Part shown: positions 19,260 to 33,256 of the stretch, one piece after another
Numbering within the stretch: the stretch's first letter is position 1
Layout: each line of letters opens with the position of its first letter
Virus record (IMG/VR): IMGVR_UViG_3300042691_046541
Coordinates: 1-44,531 of that record
Reading direction: 5' to 3' (one strand)
Length of the DNA stretch: 44,531 bases
DNA from: a virus
Position numbers and translations under genes: made by a program
Notes under the pieces: generated by a model
Seen by the model: the letters and a program-made list of their open reading frames with translations, nothing else
Databases searched by the model: none
Told to the model about the DNA's origin: nothing

Positions 19260-19450
19260 CCGGCTGCGCGCGCGCCTGCCGGACGTGCCGGTTCCTGACC
19301 GGCGCGCCGCCGATGACGGTGTGCACGCACGGCGACTATCTCGGCTGGGCCACCCACCCGGACGAGCCCGCGTGCCGTGGCCGCGCGTGGGAGCCGCAGC
19401 CGCGCACAGCACCGGATCACCCCGTGATCCCGAAGGCCGCGTCATGCTGA
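19256..19450 (+). CDS. small cysteine-rich protein in the lysis cassette
   Basis: A 64-residue protein from GTG 19256 (GTGA overlap with the holin-like stop) to TGA at 19448-19450, which overlaps the i-spanin ATG at 19444. Cysteines lie at residues 4, 8, 11, 22, 36 and 64; C4-x3-C8-x2-C11 plus C22 and C36 suggest a small metal-binding or disulphide-rich fold. There is no signal peptide. I do not recognise the family. The tight overlaps on both sides support that it is real. Confidence 0.5.
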   Translation: MTGCARACRTCRFLTGAPPMTVCTHGDYLGWATHPDEPACRGRAWEPQPRTAPDHPVIPKAASC

Positions 19451-19929
19451 CCGAAGCCCTGACGCTCGGCCGCAACTTCGGCCCGTGGTTCGCCGGCGTC
19501 GCGATCGCGGCGCTGCTGGCCGGCGCGGGCGGCGCCTGGTGGCTCGCGGGCCTCTACCACGGCGAGCGGGTCGCGCACGCCCAGCGCGCGCAGGAGCGCG
19601 CCGAGCGCACGCTCGCCGACTACCGGGCGGAGATGCGGACCGCAGTCGCCGAGGGCGAGGCCGCGGGCGCCGTGCGCGTGACGGAGGCCCTGCACGCGGA
19701 GCGCGAACGCGAGCGCCGCGTGGCGGCCGCCGTCGGGTCGATCCCCGCCGAGGTCGCCCGAATCCTCGCCCCGGACCTCGCCCTGCTCAGGAGCACCCTC
19801 GATGACCCGCGCTTCGGCTGTCTGGACCTGCCCCTGCCTGATGCTGCTCTCGGGGTGCTTCGGCGGCCCGGAGGTCGTGCGGGCGCCGCCGACGGTGATC
19901 GAGGTCCCCGTGACGGCGCCGGTCCCTGA
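19444..19929 (+). CDS. Rz: Rz-like inner membrane spanin
   Basis: A 161-residue protein with one N-terminal transmembrane helix (about 15-38, WFAGVAIAALLAGAGGAWWLAGLY) and a long charged periplasmic coiled coil (about 40-110, rich in Ala/Glu/Arg). This is the i-spanin layout. The last third (LDDPRFGCLDLPLPDAALGVLRR) is read together with the nested o-spanin gene in another frame. Spanin pairs bridge the inner and outer membranes and fuse them in the last step of lysis of Gram-negative cells. Confidence 0.8.
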   Translation: MLTEALTLGRNFGPWFAGVAIAALLAGAGGAWWLAGLYHGERVAHAQRAQERAERTLADYRAEMRTAVAEGEAAGAVRVTEALHAERERERRVAAAVGSIPAEVARILAPDLALLRSTLDDPRFGCLDLPLPDAALGVLRRPGGRAGAADGDRGPRDGAGP

Positions 19930-20059
19930 AGCCTGCGGGACAATCCGGGCGGTGGTCCTGCCGCCCGGCACCTCGGCGCGGGGTGCGCTTGAGGAACAGG
20001 CCCGGGTGATCCGGGAGTACGAGCGGCAGGTGGAGGAGTGCGCCCGGGGCGGTCAGTAG
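19802..20059 (+). CDS. Rz1: Rz1-like outer membrane spanin lipoprotein
   Basis: An 85-residue lipoprotein that starts inside the Rz-like gene in a different frame and extends 130 bases past it. The signal peptide ends in a lipobox, L16-S17-G18-C19, giving a lipid-modified C19. A Pro-rich stretch follows (RAPPTVIEVPVTAPVP), then a C-terminal helix (LEEQARVIREYERQVEECA). The embedded architecture with a Pro-rich o-spanin is classical Rz1. Its stop overlaps the convergent barrel-protein gene by 7 bases. Confidence 0.85.
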   Translation: MTRASAVWTCPCLMLLSGCFGGPEVVRAPPTVIEVPVTAPVPEACGTIRAVVLPPGTSARGALEEQARVIREYERQVEECARGGQ

Positions 20060-20661
20060 GGATCGCGCCCGAAGTCGATCCGCAGGCCGATGATCCCCAG
20101 CTTCGCGTTCGACCCGAACTCGCCGTCGGCGATGATCGCCGCGGTGTCGCTGATGTAGTAGCGGACGCCGACCACCGCCGCCGTGTCGCTGTCGTCGTAG
20201 GCCCGGTGCACGACTCGGCCCGTGAACTCCAGCTGGTTCATCGGCAGCCAGCGCACGCCGGCGGCCGCCATCAGCGCGCCCTCGTCGAGAGACGCCGAGA
20301 ACCCGGCGACGCTGGCCTCGGCCGTCACCTTCGCGTAGCCGAGCACGCCGAACACGTGCAGCCCGTCCCGCAGTTGGTACGGCACGCCGAGGCCCACCTC
20401 CCAGCGGTCCTCCTCCGCGTCCACGCTGACCCCGAGCACGTCGAGGTCGTACTCCAGCTTCCCGTACGTGCCCTCCAGGAACAGGTGCTCGGTCAGCTGG
20501 CCGGAGAACCGGGCGGCCCAGCCGCTCCCGGACTCGTCGAGGTCGTCGTTCTCGCCGGCCGCGTACCCGACGTCGAGGTAGGTGTACGAGATCTCGTCGG
20601 CGTGGGCGAGGGGGGTGCAGGCGAGGGCAGCGGCCACGGCGGCCGCGCGCAGGGTGCGCAT
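20053..20661 (-). CDS. outer membrane beta-barrel protein, candidate lysogenic conversion gene
   Basis: A 202-residue protein with a Sec signal peptide (cleavage likely after AHA at 21). Alternating hydrophobic strands suit an 8-strand barrel: YTYLDVGYA, WAARFSGQL, LFLEGTYGKLEY, RWEVGLGVPYQL, LHVFGVLGYAKV, LMAAAGVRWLP, LEFTGRVVHRAY, AAVVGVRYYIS, and AKLGIIGLRIDFGRDPY at the end. It resembles OmpA-type/Ail-type barrels such as lambda Lom. The gene is antisense to the late genes, has its own AAGGAG site, and neighbours the integrase, as cargo genes expressed in the lysogen often do. It could alter the cell surface or block phage adsorption. Confidence 0.75.
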   Translation of the reverse strand: MRTLRAAAVAAALACTPLAHADEISYTYLDVGYAAGENDDLDESGSGWAARFSGQLTEHLFLEGTYGKLEYDLDVLGVSVDAEEDRWEVGLGVPYQLRDGLHVFGVLGYAKVTAEASVAGFSASLDEGALMAAAGVRWLPMNQLEFTGRVVHRAYDDSDTAAVVGVRYYISDTAAIIADGEFGSNAKLGIIGLRIDFGRDPY

Positions 20662-28811: not shown

Positions 28812-29068
28812 CGGGCGGCCCTCCGCAGTGGGATCACGCGCGCGGTGCGCCGGTGGAACCGACGCGCGTGCTGCAGCTCGTGCAGCGCGATCCGCGCGCG
28901 GACCTCGAGCGACTGGTACGCGGTCACCTCGGCCGGCGTGCGCGGGTCGGCGCAGCGGGCGCCAATGCGGCTGAGGTAGACCCACCGCGCGAGGTTCGCG
29001 GCGTTGCGCTCGTCGAGGTCGGTGATTCCCCGATGCTGCGTGACGGTGCCGAAGCGGCGGGGGATCAC
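28808..29068 (-). CDS. hypothetical protein, 86 residues
   Basis: A basic, helix-rich protein (DLDERNAANLARWVYLSRIGARC; TAYQSLEVRARIALHELQHARRFHRRTARVIPL) with the start on the upstream stop and the stop on the downstream start. A nucleic-acid-binding role is possible given the charge. Family not recognised. Confidence 0.55.
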   Translation of the reverse strand: MIPRRFGTVTQHRGITDLDERNAANLARWVYLSRIGARCADPRTPAEVTAYQSLEVRARIALHELQHARRFHRRTARVIPLRRAAR

Positions 29069-29190
29069 GGACGGTCCCCGCGCGCCCAGCGGGCGAGTTC
29101 GTACCGCTCCAGCGCGAGCCAGAGCAGCAGCACGTAGCTGGTCACGAGGAACGCGCCGAGGAACCAGGCGAGCGGACTGATGCTGCTCAC
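29065..29190 (-). CDS. 41-residue single-pass membrane protein
   Basis: GTG 29190 overlaps the upstream stop. The product (MSSISPLAWFLGAFLVTSYV and a short basic tail) is one transmembrane helix of about 20 residues, likely with its C-terminus in the cytoplasm. It is expressed immediately early from the leftward promoter. Small membrane proteins in this place can block superinfection or host defences, but this one has no known homologue that I recognise. Confidence 0.5.
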   Translation of the reverse strand: MSSISPLAWFLGAFLVTSYVLLLWLALERYELARWARGDRP

Positions 29191-29432
29191 GGCTGCACCG
29201 CGGGCAGTTCGTAGCGGCGGCACAGCCGCTGCGCAGTCGGCAGCGTCTCGTCGACGCGCTCCGACCAGCTGGCGGCGCACTCCAGCATCGAATCGCGATT
29301 GGGATGCCCGGTCGGCCAGGTCACTGCCAGCGCCAAGCACTCTTCGCGCTCGCGCTGGCAGTGCTCGGCGTAGCGCGCGACCGCGTGGAACGCGACTCGG
29401 GCCTGCGCCTCGTTCAGCGTGACGCGCTTCAT
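29187..29432 (-). CDS. hypothetical protein, 81 residues
   Basis: It starts at ATG 29432 on the upstream stop. Long helices dominate (LNEAQARVAFHAVARYAEHCQREREECLALA; SMLECAASWSERVDETLPTAQRLCRRY). Four Cys residues are spread along it (C25, C32, C52, C71). No family recognised; an early-operon gene with a possible anti-host role. Confidence 0.55.
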   Translation of the reverse strand: MKRVTLNEAQARVAFHAVARYAEHCQREREECLALAVTWPTGHPNRDSMLECAASWSERVDETLPTAQRLCRRYELPAVQP

Positions 29433-29701
29433 GCCGCACCCCCGCGGTTCACGAGCGCGCGCATCAGGCTCGGGCCGATGTCGCCGAACATCAGCCGCTC
29501 CGTCTGCTCACGCGGCAGCGCGAGGAACGCCTTGCGGCCGAACCGCTTCGCGTAGCAGCGGCCGTGCCAGTCCGTGCGCGGCGCCGAGCGGATCATCCGG
29601 CGGTCGTCGCCCATCTCGCCGCAGTGGGCGCACGCGCTCAGGTGGCGGATGTCGTGCGCCTTGCTCAGGTCCGGCGCAGGGATAGGGCCGAGGCGGCTCA
29701 C
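29429..29701 (-). CDS. hypothetical protein with a zinc-like CxxC motif
   Basis: A 90-residue protein from ATG 29701. HDIRHLSACAHCGEMGDDRRMI ... WHGRCYAKRFGRKAFLALPREQ contains ACAHCG and a later HGRC, a likely zinc site (about 15-55). It resembles small Cys/His proteins found in phage early regions, possibly DNA-binding. Coupled by ATGA to both neighbours. Confidence 0.6.
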   Translation of the reverse strand: MSRLGPIPAPDLSKAHDIRHLSACAHCGEMGDDRRMIRSAPRTDWHGRCYAKRFGRKAFLALPREQTERLMFGDIGPSLMRALVNRGGAA

Positions 29702-29898
29702 CGCACCACCCCGGCGACGATGTCGGTCGTCGCCTCGCGGATCTCGTAGACCGCGCGGAGTTCGGCCTGACGGTCGCCGCGCCAGATCGCCTCGCGGGCG
29801 CGGCGGGCGACGTGCTCCAGGTGCGTCAGGCGGGTGACCGCGAGCTGCTGCGCGTGGCCGAGCGGCTCGGGGCGGGTGAGGTTGGCGGGGTTCGACAT
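29698..29898 (-). CDS. first gene of the leftward early operon
   Basis: A 66-residue helical protein (LGHAQQLAVTRLTHLEHVARRAREAIWRGDRQAELRAVYEIREATTDIVAGVV). It is the first ORF downstream of the leftward promoter, with GGGAG before its ATG and a 5' hairpin in the leader. In lambda this place is occupied by N, but this protein is not an obvious Arg-rich N homologue, so I do not assign that role. Confidence 0.6.
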   Translation of the reverse strand: MSNPANLTRPEPLGHAQQLAVTRLTHLEHVARRAREAIWRGDRQAELRAVYEIREATTDIVAGVVR

Positions 29899-29909
29899 CC
29901 GGCGTCTCC

Positions 29910-29926
29910 CACAGCAGAACGCTGTG
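29910..29926 (-). promoter_or_regulatory. 5' leader hairpin at the start of the leftward transcript
   Basis: On the minus strand CACAGC-GTTCT-GCTGTG forms a 6-bp stem with a five-base loop. Its first base falls at the predicted transcription start, and it is followed by GGGAG and the first ATG. It could be a stabilising 5' hairpin, a nut/boxB-like signal or a put-like RNA. Only the structure is visible; the function is inferred. Confidence 0.5.
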
Positions 29927-29932
29927 AGCCGG

Positions 29933-29961
29933 ACATTACCCGTGGGTAAAGCTTAGGTCAA
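29933..29961 (-). promoter_or_regulatory. leftward early promoter PL
   Basis: On the minus strand TTGACC (29961-29956) and TAATGT (29938-29933) are separated by 17 bases; the -10 match is weak. The -35 is abutted by one operator repeat and the spacer and -10 are covered by another. The 15-base string CCCCCGGGTATTGAC is identical to that at the rightward promoter. Confidence 0.7.
29936..29949. promoter_or_regulatory. repressor operator O1 (leftward)
   Basis: TTACCC-GT-GGGTAA is a perfect 6+6 inverted repeat covering the -10 and spacer of the leftward promoter. It is the best match to the shared consensus WTACCC-NN-GGGTAA. Confidence 0.8.
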
Positions 29962-29974
29962 TACCCGGGGGTAA
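29961..29974. promoter_or_regulatory. repressor operator O2 (leftward)
   Basis: ATACCC-GG-GGGTAA lies directly upstream of the leftward -35, with its centre 25 bases from that of O1. That spacing of two to two and a half helical turns is typical of cooperative repressor sites. Confidence 0.75.
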
Positions 29975-30012
29975 AAGCTGCGCCGATCACGGCGGCCTCC
30001 GCGGCAGGGGGT

Positions 30013-30729
30013 TTAGTCCTGCCAGCTACTTACGCGACCATTCTCGGTGTAGATGTACGTGCGCCCGTAGACCCACTGCTTGTGCTCGTGGGTGCTGCCG
30101 CCGGCCTCAAAAACCGACCGGTTGACGTCGTCGGGAGGGCCAAATGCGCAAAGTACGGCGTCTTCCCTCATGCCGATGCTCACCGTCCGCGCGGCGATCG
30201 CCTCGGCTTCCTCCAGAGTCCCGCCGCGGCGCGCCCATTCGTTCGCGTACGCGCGGTCGCTGGCCTTGCCCCTCAAGGCTTTGCAGAGCGCCGAGTCGGA
30301 CAGCTCTCGGATGGCCTGCATCTCCGCCTGCGCGGTCCGGGCTTCTTCCGCCGCACGAGTATCGTCCGGCCGAAGGGTCGCCAGCCGCGTCCAGACGTCC
30401 TTCCTGTCCTGAACCTGCGATGCCTTCAGCGTCGCCGCGCGCGCCTCGAGAAGGCCGATCTCGGCCTCGTTGAGCAGCGAGAGCACCGCGGGATCGTTCG
30501 TCCAGGCGAACTGGCTGAGCTTCGTGTTCGCGAGGTCGAACTGCCCCGCCGTCAGCGCCGCACGCGCCTCTTCCAAGGCTTTAGGACCGTTGGCCTTCCA
30601 GTACTCCTGAAGCTTGGCTTGGACGTAGTCGGTTTCACTGACCGGGGTCTGCGCGGTCTCGGAGCCGCACCCCGCGAGGCCGCAGAGGGCGAGCAGGGCG
30701 GCAGTGGCCGCTGCGCGAGCCCTGATCAC
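30013..30729 (-). CDS. repressor-coupled lipoprotein with BamE/SmpA-like C-terminus
   Basis: A 238-residue lipoprotein starting at GTG 30729 on the repressor stop (GTGA), so it should be expressed from the lysogenic transcript. The signal peptide ends in lipobox L18-A19-G20-C21; residue 22 is Gly, not Asp, so outer membrane sorting is expected. Residues about 35-165 form a helical, TPR-like region. The C-terminal 60 residues (VSIGMREDAVLCAFGPPDDVNRSVF ... KQWVYGRTYIYTENGRVSSWQD) follow the SmpA/OmlA/BamE pattern of G-M/T-xxxV, GxP, QWVY and a final strand. The position equals lambda rex. Superinfection exclusion at the envelope is an inference. Confidence 0.75.
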   Translation of the reverse strand: MIRARAAATAALLALCGLAGCGSETAQTPVSETDYVQAKLQEYWKANGPKALEEARAALTAGQFDLANTKLSQFAWTNDPAVLSLLNEAEIGLLEARAATLKASQVQDRKDVWTRLATLRPDDTRAAEEARTAQAEMQAIRELSDSALCKALRGKASDRAYANEWARRGGTLEEAEAIAARTVSIGMREDAVLCAFGPPDDVNRSVFEAGGSTHEHKQWVYGRTYIYTENGRVSSWQD

Positions 30730-31187
30730 GGAGCTGAGGACGCGTCCGCCAGCTCGTCGACGCGAGTTTCGCGGCCGACGTCATCGCGAACCTTGCGACG
30801 GCTGCGCTTCTGTCGCGCGACCAGCGTCTCGATCAGCGTCTGAATCTGCGAGCGCAGCGGCTCTTCGAGCTTCTCCCACTCGGCGCCCAGGCGTGCGCCC
30901 ACCGGAGTCACTTCGATGCCGTGGATCGTGCCTGCCTTGGCCTCGGTCATCCCGTCGAGATAACCCAGCGGGAGCTGGAGCTTACGCTCGATATCTCGCG
31001 CGAGATCCTCGCCGATCTTCTTGTGCTGCGCCCCGTTCGGATTGAGCATCCGGGAGACGTAGTTGTCGGTGCGGTCGATGGCCTTCGCGAACGCAGCCTT
31101 GCTGCCGTCGAACTTGGCTTCGACGATCGCAACGACCCGCTCGCGCCGAATAACCGCAATGTCCACGCCCCTAGGGTGCCAGCGCAT
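30726..31187 (-). CDS. phage repressor (CI-like, no peptidase domain)
   Basis: A 153-residue protein if ATG 31187 is used (146 from GTG 31166; family homology begins near VDIAVIRRERV). The N-terminal helix-turn-helix is KFDGSKAAFAKAIDRTDNYVSRMLNPNG (about 26-53), followed by KKIGEDLARDIERKLQLPLGYLDG, as in CI/Cro-type proteins. The C-terminal tail (EWEKLEEPLRSQIQTLIETLVARQ) is a dimerisation-like helix. No LexA/S24 peptidase Ser-Lys domain is present, so induction is unlikely to be by RecA-driven self-cleavage. Operator O3 overlaps the start codon. Confidence 0.85.
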   Translation of the reverse strand: MRWHPRGVDIAVIRRERVVAIVEAKFDGSKAAFAKAIDRTDNYVSRMLNPNGAQHKKIGEDLARDIERKLQLPLGYLDGMTEAKAGTIHGIEVTPVGARLGAEWEKLEEPLRSQIQTLIETLVARQKRSRRKVRDDVGRETRVDELADASSAP

Positions 31188-31199
31188 ACCGCTGGGTAA
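31186..31199. promoter_or_regulatory. operator O3 at the repressor start
   Basis: ATACCG-CT-GGGTAA overlaps the ATG of the repressor gene. It has one mismatch in the left arm. Its location suggests autoregulation of the repressor, like lambda OR3. Confidence 0.65.
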
Positions 31200-31200
31200 A

Positions 31201-31214
31201 TGGCCCCCGGGTAT
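31201..31214. promoter_or_regulatory. operator O4 at the rightward -35
   Basis: TGGCCC-CC-GGGTAT; read on the other strand it agrees with O2 at 11 of 14 positions. The right half-site is intact and the left half is poor. It abuts TTGACG, exactly as O2 abuts TTGACC at the leftward promoter. Confidence 0.55.
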
Positions 31215-31241
31215 TGACGACACCTTACCTTTGGGTAAAGT
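31214..31241 (+). promoter_or_regulatory. rightward early promoter PR
   Basis: TTGACG (31214-31219), a 16-base spacer and TAAAGT (31236-31241). The expected start falls at about 31248, the ATG of the Cro-like gene, so the message may be leaderless. Flanked by O4 and O5. Confidence 0.7.
31225..31238. promoter_or_regulatory. operator O5 over the rightward -10
   Basis: TTACCT-TT-GGGTAA, one mismatch from the consensus palindrome, covers the spacer and the first part of the -10. Repressor or Cro binding here would block polymerase. Confidence 0.75.
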
Positions 31242-31247
31242 GTCGGC

Positions 31248-31520
31248 ATGGACGCACTTCGCGAGTACCTGAACGCCCTGACTCCAGCGGAGCAGCACGA
31301 GTTCGCTGCCCGGGTTGGGACCAGCGTCGGCTACCTCCGGAAGGCCATCTCGGCTCGCCAGAACATCGGCGACAACCTGGTGGTCGCGATCGAACGCGAG
31401 AGCCGCGGCGCCGTCCGCTGCGAGCACCTTCGCCCCGACGTGGACTGGGCCTACCTGCGCGGTACTGCCCGCCGTTCCGGCACGCGATCGGCCAAGCCGG
31501 CCCGTCGTCGATCCCACTGA
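31248..31520 (+). CDS. Cro/YdaS-like regulator
   Basis: A 90-residue protein. MDALREYLNALTPAEQHEFAARVGTSVGYLRKAISARQNIGDNLVVAIERESRGAVRCEHLRPDVDWAYLRG matches the YdaS/Cro-like family. Its HTH is AEQHEFAARVGTSVGYLRKAIS (about 14-35) and the DVDWAYLRG ending is characteristic. Divergent from the repressor, it should act as the Cro counterpart, turning off the repressor during lytic growth. The predicted transcription start coincides with its ATG and no Shine-Dalgarno sequence is evident. The tail is Arg/Ser-rich. Confidence 0.82.
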   Translation: MDALREYLNALTPAEQHEFAARVGTSVGYLRKAISARQNIGDNLVVAIERESRGAVRCEHLRPDVDWAYLRGTARRSGTRSAKPARRRSH

Positions 31521-31542
31521 GCTTTCCATGCGAGCACCCTCC

Positions 31543-31998
31543 ATGAGCGCACTCGGCCGCAAGCTTGACCGTCAACGCGACTCAAGCTCGTTGGCGGGCG
31601 TTGAGCAGCTCGAGTTGCGGATCGCCCGCCGCGCCGCGCCCGCGCACGTGCCGGTCGAGACGATCGCGCTGCAGCCGACGATGACCGGCGCCATCAACCT
31701 CGCGATCAACGCGAGCGGGCTGGCCGACAAGGAGATCGCCGACGCGCTCGGCATCGACCCGGCCACCTGGTCCCGGATCCGCAGTGGGCAGGCGCACTTC
31801 CCGCAGGACCGTCTCGACCCTCTGTGCGACCTGCTGGGGAATGACATCCCGCTGCAGTGGTGGGCGCATCGCCGTCGCTACGAATTGAAACCCCTGCGCT
31901 CCGAGCTGGAGCAGCAGATCGACGACCTCCGCGCGCAGCTCGCCGATCGCGAGCGCGACCTCGACGTGATCCGGAGGTTCGTGCAGCAGACCCGTTGA
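31543..31998 (+). CDS. second early regulator (CII-like position)
   Basis: A 151-residue protein from ATG 31543 (ATG 31528 possible). The core, LQPTMTGAINLAINASGLADKEIADALGIDPATWSRIRSGQAHFPQDRLDPLCDLLGNDIPLQWWAHRRRYELK (about 40-115), is a helix-turn-helix domain common in phages at this place, directly after Cro. A coiled coil closes the protein (SELEQQIDDLRAQLADRERDLDVIRRF). It occupies the place of lambda CII and may activate lysogenic promoters; a direct homology to CII is not evident. Confidence 0.7.
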   Translation: MSALGRKLDRQRDSSSLAGVEQLELRIARRAAPAHVPVETIALQPTMTGAINLAINASGLADKEIADALGIDPATWSRIRSGQAHFPQDRLDPLCDLLGNDIPLQWWAHRRRYELKPLRSELEQQIDDLRAQLADRERDLDVIRRFVQQTR

Positions 31999-32266
31999 AC
32001 GGTCGCTCGGCGCAATTCGCGCCGATCAGCCGTGCCGCGTGCGTCGATGTCAGACAGACACCGATGCGCGCAGTAGGACCGCACTGACACCAGCGACCCG
32101 CATGGAAGCGGGCAGGGCACATCACGGACGACGACGCCCGGCGAGCGCGGCGTGGGCGCGTTCGTCTCCGAAACCCCCGCGCTGGCCGCGCGCTGCACGC
32201 GGCTCTGCTTTTCGGCTCCGGTAGCAGACGAACAACCGGGCGCTAACTCAGGGAGCGCGGGGGCGC
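31999..32266 (+). other. gap without a convincing gene before the replication genes
   Basis: These 268 bases contain only weak ORFs. One is a 30-residue TTG-started frame (31995-32087) coupled to the regulator's stop, another is an Arg-rich frame from 32102; neither is well supported. The codon pattern is irregular. A leader or an unrecognised small gene is possible. Confidence 0.4.
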
Positions 32267-33256
32267 GTGAACTACTTCGAGTTTCATATCGGCGACTACG
32301 CGGCGGCGACCGAGCATCTCTCCGACGAGGAGGATCTCGCGTACACGCGGCTGCTCCGTGCCTACTACCGCGACGAGCGCCCCATCCCTGCCGATCTCCG
32401 CGCCGCCTGTCGGCTCGCTCGCGCGCGCACTGACGCGATGCGCGAGGCGGTCGACGTCGTCCTCCGCGAGTTCTTCGTGCTTGAGGCCGACGGCTGGCAC
32501 AACCGGCGGGCCGACAAGGTAATCGCCGAGTACCGCGCGACGGAGCCTGAGCGCGAGGCCAAGAAGGCGAACGAGGCCGAGCGTCAGCGGCGGCACCGCG
32601 AGGCACGCCGCGAGATGTTCGAGCAGCTGCGCGCGGCCGGCGTGGTGCCTGACTGGAACTTGCCGATGCGCGAGCTGCAAGCGCTCGTCACGCGTCACTG
32701 CTCGGCACCTGTCACGCCCGTCACGCGTGACACCACGGCACCTGTCACGCCAGCAACGGACCTGTCACGCGTGACAAGCGTGACAGGCCACGGCTACCCA
32801 CTTCCCACCTCCCACCTCCCACTTCCCACTACCCAGATAGAAGAACCCAGGAAGGAAGAGGGGCGCGCTGCGCGCGTCGATCCGATCGCGATCGCGGAGG
32901 CTCTCCCGAGCGCCGTGCAGGGGACGTGGGCCGAGTGGATCCAGTTCCGCCGCGAGAAGCGCATGCCGCTCTCCGGCCTCGCCCTGCGCAAGCAGGTGCA
33001 GTTCCTCGTGGCGTACCCGCCCGAGGCCCAGATCGAAATCCTGAACACATCGATCCGCGCGGGCTGGCAGGGCCTGTTCGCGCCGAAGGGAGTCGTCAAT
33101 GGCAACGCCCGACCCGTTTCGCGCTTCGACCAGACCCGTGCACACCTCGACGGACTCATCGCCGAGGCCGAGCGCGAAGAGCGTGCGCTTCTGGCGCGCG
33201 ATGCAGAGTCTGTTCGGCCACCGCTGGACGGACAGCTACGGATCGGAACCGGATGA
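32267..33256 (+). CDS. replication initiator-like protein with DUF1376 domain
   Basis: A 329-residue product from GTG 32267 (GGGAG upstream). The N-terminal DUF1376 domain (MNYFEFHIGDYAAATEHLSDEEDLAYTRLLRAYY ... DGWHNRRADKVIAEY, about 1-90) is found in phage replication proteins (YdaU-like). A basic helix follows (KKANEAERQRRHREARREMFEQL). The middle (about 140-190) is encoded by the iteron and pyrimidine repeats. The C-terminal part (PIAIAEALPSAVQGTWAEWIQFRREKRMPLSGLALRKQVQFLV) is a second helical domain. By position it corresponds to lambda O; it overlaps the P-like gene by 158 bases. Confidence 0.8.
   Translation: MNYFEFHIGDYAAATEHLSDEEDLAYTRLLRAYYRDERPIPADLRAACRLARARTDAMREAVDVVLREFFVLEADGWHNRRADKVIAEYRATEPEREAKKANEAERQRRHREARREMFEQLRAAGVVPDWNLPMRELQALVTRHCSAPVTPVTRDTTAPVTPATDLSRVTSVTGHGYPLPTSHLPLPTTQIEEPRKEEGRAARVDPIAIAEALPSAVQGTWAEWIQFRREKRMPLSGLALRKQVQFLVAYPPEAQIEILNTSIRAGWQGLFAPKGVVNGNARPVSRFDQTRAHLDGLIAEAEREERALLARDAESVRPPLDGQLRIGTG
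32687..32784 (+). repeat. iteron-like repeats, candidate replication origin
   Basis: Eight copies of GTCACGC or its complement GCGTGAC lie within 98 bases (starting at 32687, 32711, 32720, 32725, 32744, 32764, 32769 and 32778). Two pairs form the 12-base palindrome GTCACGCGTGAC (32720-32731, 32764-32775). This occurs inside the initiator-like gene, as lambda ori lies inside gene O. Confidence 0.7.
32794..32835 (+). repeat. heptanucleotide pyrimidine-rich tandem repeat
   Basis: Six adjoining 7-mers of the form CYWCCCA or CCTCCCA (CTACCCA, CTTCCCA, CCTCCCA twice, CTTCCCA, CTACCCA) directly follow the iterons. A purine-rich tract (AGATAGAAGAACCCAG, then GAAGGAAG) follows at 32836-32858. This strand-asymmetric, less GC-rich stretch may be the unwinding element of the origin. 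Confidence 0.6.

Follow-up and report, generated by a model that had tools for sequence, protein, structure and literature searches.

In phage lambda, the immunity region is arranged in the order OL - rexB - rexA - cI - OR - cro. Studied proteins of the BamE/BLIP superfamily bind, and often inhibit, other proteins outside the cytoplasm; BamE acts in the BAM complex, while BLIP binds and inhibits beta-lactamases. Membrane-anchored BamE-like immunity proteins are paired with Lipocone toxins, for which they are the most widespread immunity proteins (PMC12419801). The lysogeny module of phage TP-J34 encodes a lipoprotein, Ltp, whose gene the prophage transcribes and which stops the injection of DNA (PMC3952083).

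The locus considered here belongs to a temperate siphophage, represented by a virus record of 44,531 bases (the whole stretch of DNA that was analyzed, referred to below as the window) with genes for a large terminase, portal, major tail protein, tape measure, serine integrase, and DNA methyltransferase. An initial annotation drew attention to a lipoprotein gene in its immunity region. This gene resembles lambda rexA and rexB in its position behind the repressor gene, on the same strand and within the interval from OL/PL to OR/PR, whereas its product differs in being a lipoprotein with a BamE/BLIP-type domain and without a PHROG family match. The likeness to TP-J34 Ltp consists in a phage lipoprotein encoded in a lysogeny module on the repressor strand, with prophage transcription known for TP-J34 (PMC3952083). 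In contrast to Ltp, the protein contains a different domain, and searches of Pfam, PHROG, and NCBIfam found no Ltp-family domain in it; moreover, Ltp serves in a Gram-positive host, outside the cytoplasmic membrane, whereas the present protein is predicted to be an outer-membrane lipoprotein of Gram-negative type.

Arrangement of the immunity region

The features of the region, with the evidence for each in brackets, are as follows.

29933..29961, minus strand: PL-like leftward promoter, TTGACC - 17 - TAATGT, with a weak -10 and overlapping operators (sequence, homology to the PR module)
29936..29949: OL-type operator TTACCCGTGGGTAA, 0 mismatches (motif scan)
29961..29974: OL-type operator ATACCCGGGGGTAA, 1 mismatch (motif scan)
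30013..30729, minus strand: lipoprotein gene, 238 amino acids, GTG start, TAA stop (open reading frame and translation, coding periodicity, homologs)
30726..31166, minus strand: repressor gene, GTG start, phrog_12107 (E 4e-15), stop overlapping the lipoprotein start as GTGA (PHROG match)
31186..31199: OR-type operator ATACCGCTGGGTAA, 2 mismatches (motif scan)
31201..31214: weak OR-type operator TGGCCCCCGGGTAT, 3 mismatches (motif scan)
31214..31241, plus strand: PR-like rightward promoter, TTGACG - 16 - TAAAGT (promoter scan)
31225..31238: OR-type operator TTACCTTTGGGTAA, 1 mismatch (motif scan)
31248..31520, plus strand: Cro-type gene of the YdaS family, divergent from the repressor gene (PF15943 E 2.8e-9, phrog_35)

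The GTGA overlap, in which the repressor TGA (30728-30726) meets the lipoprotein GTG (30729-30727) on the same strand, agrees with the initial annotation. The operators match a palindrome, TTACCCNNGGGTAA, that occurs at four sites with two or fewer mismatches in the whole window, where 0.13 sites would be expected; this expectation is after the fact, since the palindrome was read off the sequence before counting. The choice of motif does not explain the confinement of these sites to two intergenic gaps, one behind the lipoprotein gene (29936 and 29961) and the other between repressor and cro (31186 and 31225). When the leftward control region, located behind the lipoprotein gene, is aligned with the rightward one ahead of cro, the local score is 32, compared with a maximum of 25 in 1000 shuffles. 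The PL and PR modules share CCCCCGGGTATTGA exactly, in addition to the operator, and a TTGAC -35 box is set between operators in both. A promoter scan of 29000-32400 reported the PR box as its sole promoter-like site and recognized no leftward maintenance promoter. Operators and homologous promoter modules at both ends of the gene pair thus give the order OL/PL - lipoprotein - repressor - OR/PR - cro. The comparison with the lambda rex position is stronger than the initial annotation knew: operators at both ends, its best evidence, had been missed there, and the same domain also lies behind repressors in unrelated phages, as described below.

This layout suggests that repressor and lipoprotein would form one leftward unit, transcribed in the lysogen while the flanking lytic promoters are shut. 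Expression of the lipoprotein in the lysogen is accordingly graded as probable from the arrangement of the genes; co-transcription with the repressor is something we infer, since no leftward maintenance promoter was recognized in the scan.

The repressor (30726-31166, minus strand) comprises just the N-terminal, phrog_12107-type half of longer proteins that carry a C-terminal S24-type half at locus L041 (PF00717 match) and, by sequence, at L079-L082. Induction may therefore not go through RecA-stimulated self-cleavage. Elsewhere in the window, an outer-membrane beta-barrel gene (20053-20661, minus strand; PF13505 E 2e-11) with a signal peptide lies between the lysis genes and the serine integrase gene; it had no match among annotated phages and possibly encodes a second envelope protein of lysogenic conversion. 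A likely Rz/Rz1 spanin pair is located at 19443-20059 (plus strand), where a membrane-anchored Rz-like open reading frame contains an embedded, out-of-frame small lipoprotein frame (LLSGC) at 19802-20059.

The lipoprotein and its C-terminal domain

Three parts of the protein can be distinguished.

30667..30729, minus strand: signal peptide and lipobox, residues 1-21, LAGC21 with Gly at +2 (sequence)
30295..30639, minus strand: helical TPR-like middle, residues ~31-145 (AlphaFold models, weak Foldseek matches to TPR folds)
30016..30216, minus strand: C-terminal BamE/BLIP-superfamily domain, residues ~172-238, two helices then four strands, GM...GPP...NR...QWVYG..YIY.ENG (alignment, AlphaFold)

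The initial annotation placed the open reading frame correctly (30729 to 30013, minus strand), and the lipobox, the helical middle, and the QWVY sequence that it described are all borne out, the middle by structure prediction over residues 32-145 and QWVY at residues 218-221. The N-terminus, MIRARAAATAALLALCGLAGC, consists of a charged start, a hydrophobic core, and the LAGC lipobox with Cys21; a lipoprotein-like N-terminus was found in only one of 174 open reading frames of at least 100 amino acids in the window, namely this one. GC contents of 0.66, 0.52, and 0.83 at codon positions 1, 2, and 3 fit a real gene, and the third-position value is below that of most phage genes, as is common in accessory genes. 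The unique lipobox, coding signature, homologs, and coupling to the repressor rule out a chance open reading frame. Because the residue at +2 is Gly and not the Asp of the inner-membrane retention signal, signal rules predict that the protein would be exported, lipidated at Cys21, and anchored in the outer membrane on its periplasmic side, a predicted localization that it shares with BamE.

An AlphaFold model based on 44 sequences had a mean pLDDT of 88.7. Prediction from the single sequence gave pLDDT >90 over nearly all of residues 31-100 and a poor C-terminus, which was mended when the 43 relatives were added. The predicted C-terminal domain contains helices at 172-180 and 189-196, followed by strands at 201-209, 212-221, 224-229, and 232-237. 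This order of two helices and an antiparallel sheet, together with a G-M-T...V...G-x-P motif in the alignment, is that of the BLIP-like/BamE superfamily. In Foldseek searches of the PDB, the first match was the BLIP-like protein 3d4e of Streptococcus mutans (probability 0.99 but E 0.12), OsmE was third, and BamE was absent from the best 50 matches. A profile of the domain searched against structures likewise put 3d4e at the top (E 0.012), followed by BLIP and, after it, BamE (about 0.6). Pfam BamE (PF04355) did not match the lipoprotein at E <= 1, although weak contacts were made by other family members (7 of 44 with Pfam BamE, best E 0.007; 5 of 44 with DUF3862; 4 of 44 with DUF2845), and hhalign of the family against a BamE alignment gave a probability of 68%. 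Although each of these links is weak by itself, their combination assigns the domain to the BamE/BLIP superfamily, not to BamE.

The resemblance to SmpA/OmlA/BamE proposed initially thus stands at the superfamily level, while a specific relationship to BamE does not, the nearest solved structure being 3d4e. With BamE/SmpA/OmlA (PF04355) the protein shares its lipoprotein nature and a distant relation of the C-terminal domain. It differs in the absence of a Pfam match, its TPR-like spacer, the QWVYG..Y.YF.NG motif, and a predicted extra strand, BamE being described by a two-helix hairpin followed by three strands; it also differs in occurring in monoderms. Family members are encoded by Clostridia and by Bacillus plasmids and phages, and Bacillus and Clostridia, being monoderms, have no BAM. 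Direct BamE orthology is ruled out by the absent Pfam match and by three family-bearing genomes (G001-G003) that encode true BamE separately from the family gene (1e-25 to 1e-26). BLIP-like/DUF3862 proteins (3d4e, BLIP) are the best structural and profile matches in the PDB and share the two helices and four strands; unlike the single domain found here, theirs is in tandem, and the values given above make the match a weak one. Among viral predicted structures, lipoproteins of Salinibacter phage M1EM-1 (A0A2I6UG23) and Winogradskyella phage Peternella_1 matched at probability 1.00 but are much shorter.

Relatives of the domain and their positions

The lipoprotein had no Pfam family above cut-off, no PHROG, and no convincing NCBIfam match. 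A known defence family was ruled out, as PADLOC gave no match. Direct relatives were found in none of 50,697 phage genomes, and single-protein scans of viral contigs were likewise empty. The family was therefore reached through its first relative, a Polaromonas plasmid protein matching the C-terminal domain at E = 5e-4, which also resembles a lipoprotein and has a long middle along with the shared C-terminal motif. Two-sequence alignments starting from this protein led to 27 and 16 viral loci and 27 bacterial loci; a six-sequence alignment proved too diverse as a search query. A Sinorhizobium phage match (H6) was dropped, being antisense to an annotated gene.

In the alignment, family members have in common just the C-terminal ~60 residues, I-G-M-T..V...WG.P..INRT.GS.GVHEQWVYG..YLYFENG.LTS.Q. 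Their N-termini may be a lipobox, a cleaved signal, or a transmembrane anchor, and their middles are unrelated. A betaproteobacterial member (L052) aligns with residues 16-235 of the lipoprotein (E = 3.8e-11), a near-full-length match that makes the combination of lipobox, helical middle, and domain a recurring architecture. The hosts, diderm and monoderm, include Proteobacteria, Bacteroidota, and Nitrospirota in addition to those already named, and family genes are found on plasmids and chromosomes as well as in phages. Strong profile matches (E < 1e-9) occurred in about 4 of 185 genomes of one class, which marks a sporadic gene, and the phages closest by terminase have no detectable copy of the lipoprotein, so that the gene is not core. 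The domain, which has no Pfam model, is thus scattered over diderm and monoderm phyla, plasmids, and phages.

On Psychrobacter plasmid pA15BP4 (L008, 2782-3910) a family gene adjoins one annotated as an Ltp-family lipoprotein. On a Bacteroidota-type phage contig (L034, 5215-7032), a complete family gene is followed within less than 1 kb by a short fragment bearing the family's C-terminal motif, which suggests local duplication. In nine Moraxella catarrhalis phage genomes (Mcat records) the family gene is annotated as hypothetical, and in Mcat5 (L004) a 3.5-kb tail gene follows closely downstream of it.

At 4 of about 22 non-redundant viral loci, the immediate upstream neighbor is a same-strand gene for a repressor or phage regulator. 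At L041 the domain gene lies 12 bp behind a Peptidase_S24 repressor with the same phrog_12107 N-terminus, and at L016 it is 20 bp from an HTH_3 regulator. L023 has an HTH_3 gene upstream, a divergent cro-type gene, and an adjacent integrase-like gene (by sequence), and at L024 the upstream gene matches phrog_8 (E 2.7e-4). A repressor or regulator lies two genes upstream at L014 and L039, and L033 offers a weak candidate. Phage integrases adjoin two close bacterial relatives (L053, L069) and a weak family match (E 0.01) in Marinobacter phage AS1. Assuming one repressor per 30 to 50 genes, the binomial probability of 4 in 22 is about 0.001 to 0.005, a rough figure given the assumed rate and the general preference of accessory genes for such slots. 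On a domain tree, which rests on few columns and has many open forks, the repressor-adjacent members are scattered, with eight changes needed and at least four forced by well-supported branches; the slot behind the repressor was therefore probably filled several times. Other members lie near terminase (L012, L015, L028) or tape-measure genes (L010, L019), the usual moron sites. With many members in tail or packaging operons and further copies on chromosomes, the domain's role need not be exclusion.

Possible roles in the lysogen

The lipoprotein gene would be an accessory, lysogenic-conversion gene of the immunity region. For its product, the likeliest identity is an outer-membrane-anchored periplasmic binding protein, made in the lysogen for superinfection exclusion or other lysogenic conversion, a reading of moderate confidence. 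The TPR-like spacer would present the C-terminal domain to a partner in the envelope, which might be a receptor or channel of the host or else the tail enzyme or ejection protein of an incoming phage; binding it would exclude superinfecting phages. Such partner binding has been shown for the fold class, and we infer it for this lipoprotein. Because of the protein-binding record of the fold and the precedent of TP-J34 Ltp, exclusion is the likeliest single role, predicted by analogy and held tentatively.

Another benefit to the lysogen is nearly as likely. The protein could confer a trait unrelated to phage exclusion, concerned with envelope stress, antibiotics, bacterial toxins, or defence against predators, for example as a BLIP-like periplasmic enzyme inhibitor or a toxin immunity protein. 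The inhibition of beta-lactamases by BLIP and the prevalence of BamE-like proteins among Lipocone immunity proteins (PMC12419801) are consistent with this possibility, as is the presence of the family on plasmids and chromosomes, but the recurrent linkage to repressors and integrases in phages is at least equally compatible with a function that serves the prophage. The gene's sporadic occurrence, its absence from related phages, and its lowered GC3 would also suit a host-derived passenger that occupies a tolerated slot by accident and has no selected function; this is improbable, because the reading frame is intact, motif residues are conserved, translation is coupled to that of the repressor, and other phages have used this slot repeatedly. 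Least probable is the specific proposal of the initial annotation, in which the lipoprotein docks on or disturbs the BAM complex and thereby alters the outer-membrane receptors of the lysogen. Shared superfamily membership, including the hhalign result and the weak Pfam BamE contacts, the outer-membrane signal, and the beta-barrel encoded by the same phage speak for it. Nevertheless, the domain is not BamE, as the missing Pfam match, the separate true BamE genes, the BLIP-like nearest structure, and the extra first strand indicate, and it serves hosts without BAM, so an action specifically on BAM is rated very unlikely.

The initial annotation knew of no described system with this combination. 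No system linking BamE, SmpA/OmlA, or BamA with prophage exclusion was found in the open-access literature, whose incomplete coverage makes this weak evidence; exclusion lipoproteins of lysogeny modules are, however, a known category, as TP-J34 Ltp illustrates, and it is the domain and its recurrence behind repressors that appear undescribed. More broadly, and speculatively, temperate phages of diderm and monoderm hosts may have repeatedly recruited one BamE/BLIP-superfamily domain, lipid- or membrane-anchored, behind their repressors, as a general class of envelope guards directed against incoming phages, whose ejection proteins or tail enzymes they would inhibit. Which phages can share a host is decided by envelope proteins that lysogens express; the known families are few, and most of them came to light singly. 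The domain behind repressors, which existing libraries leave unlabelled, provides a searchable signature and a group of exclusion or conversion candidates that can be tested at once.
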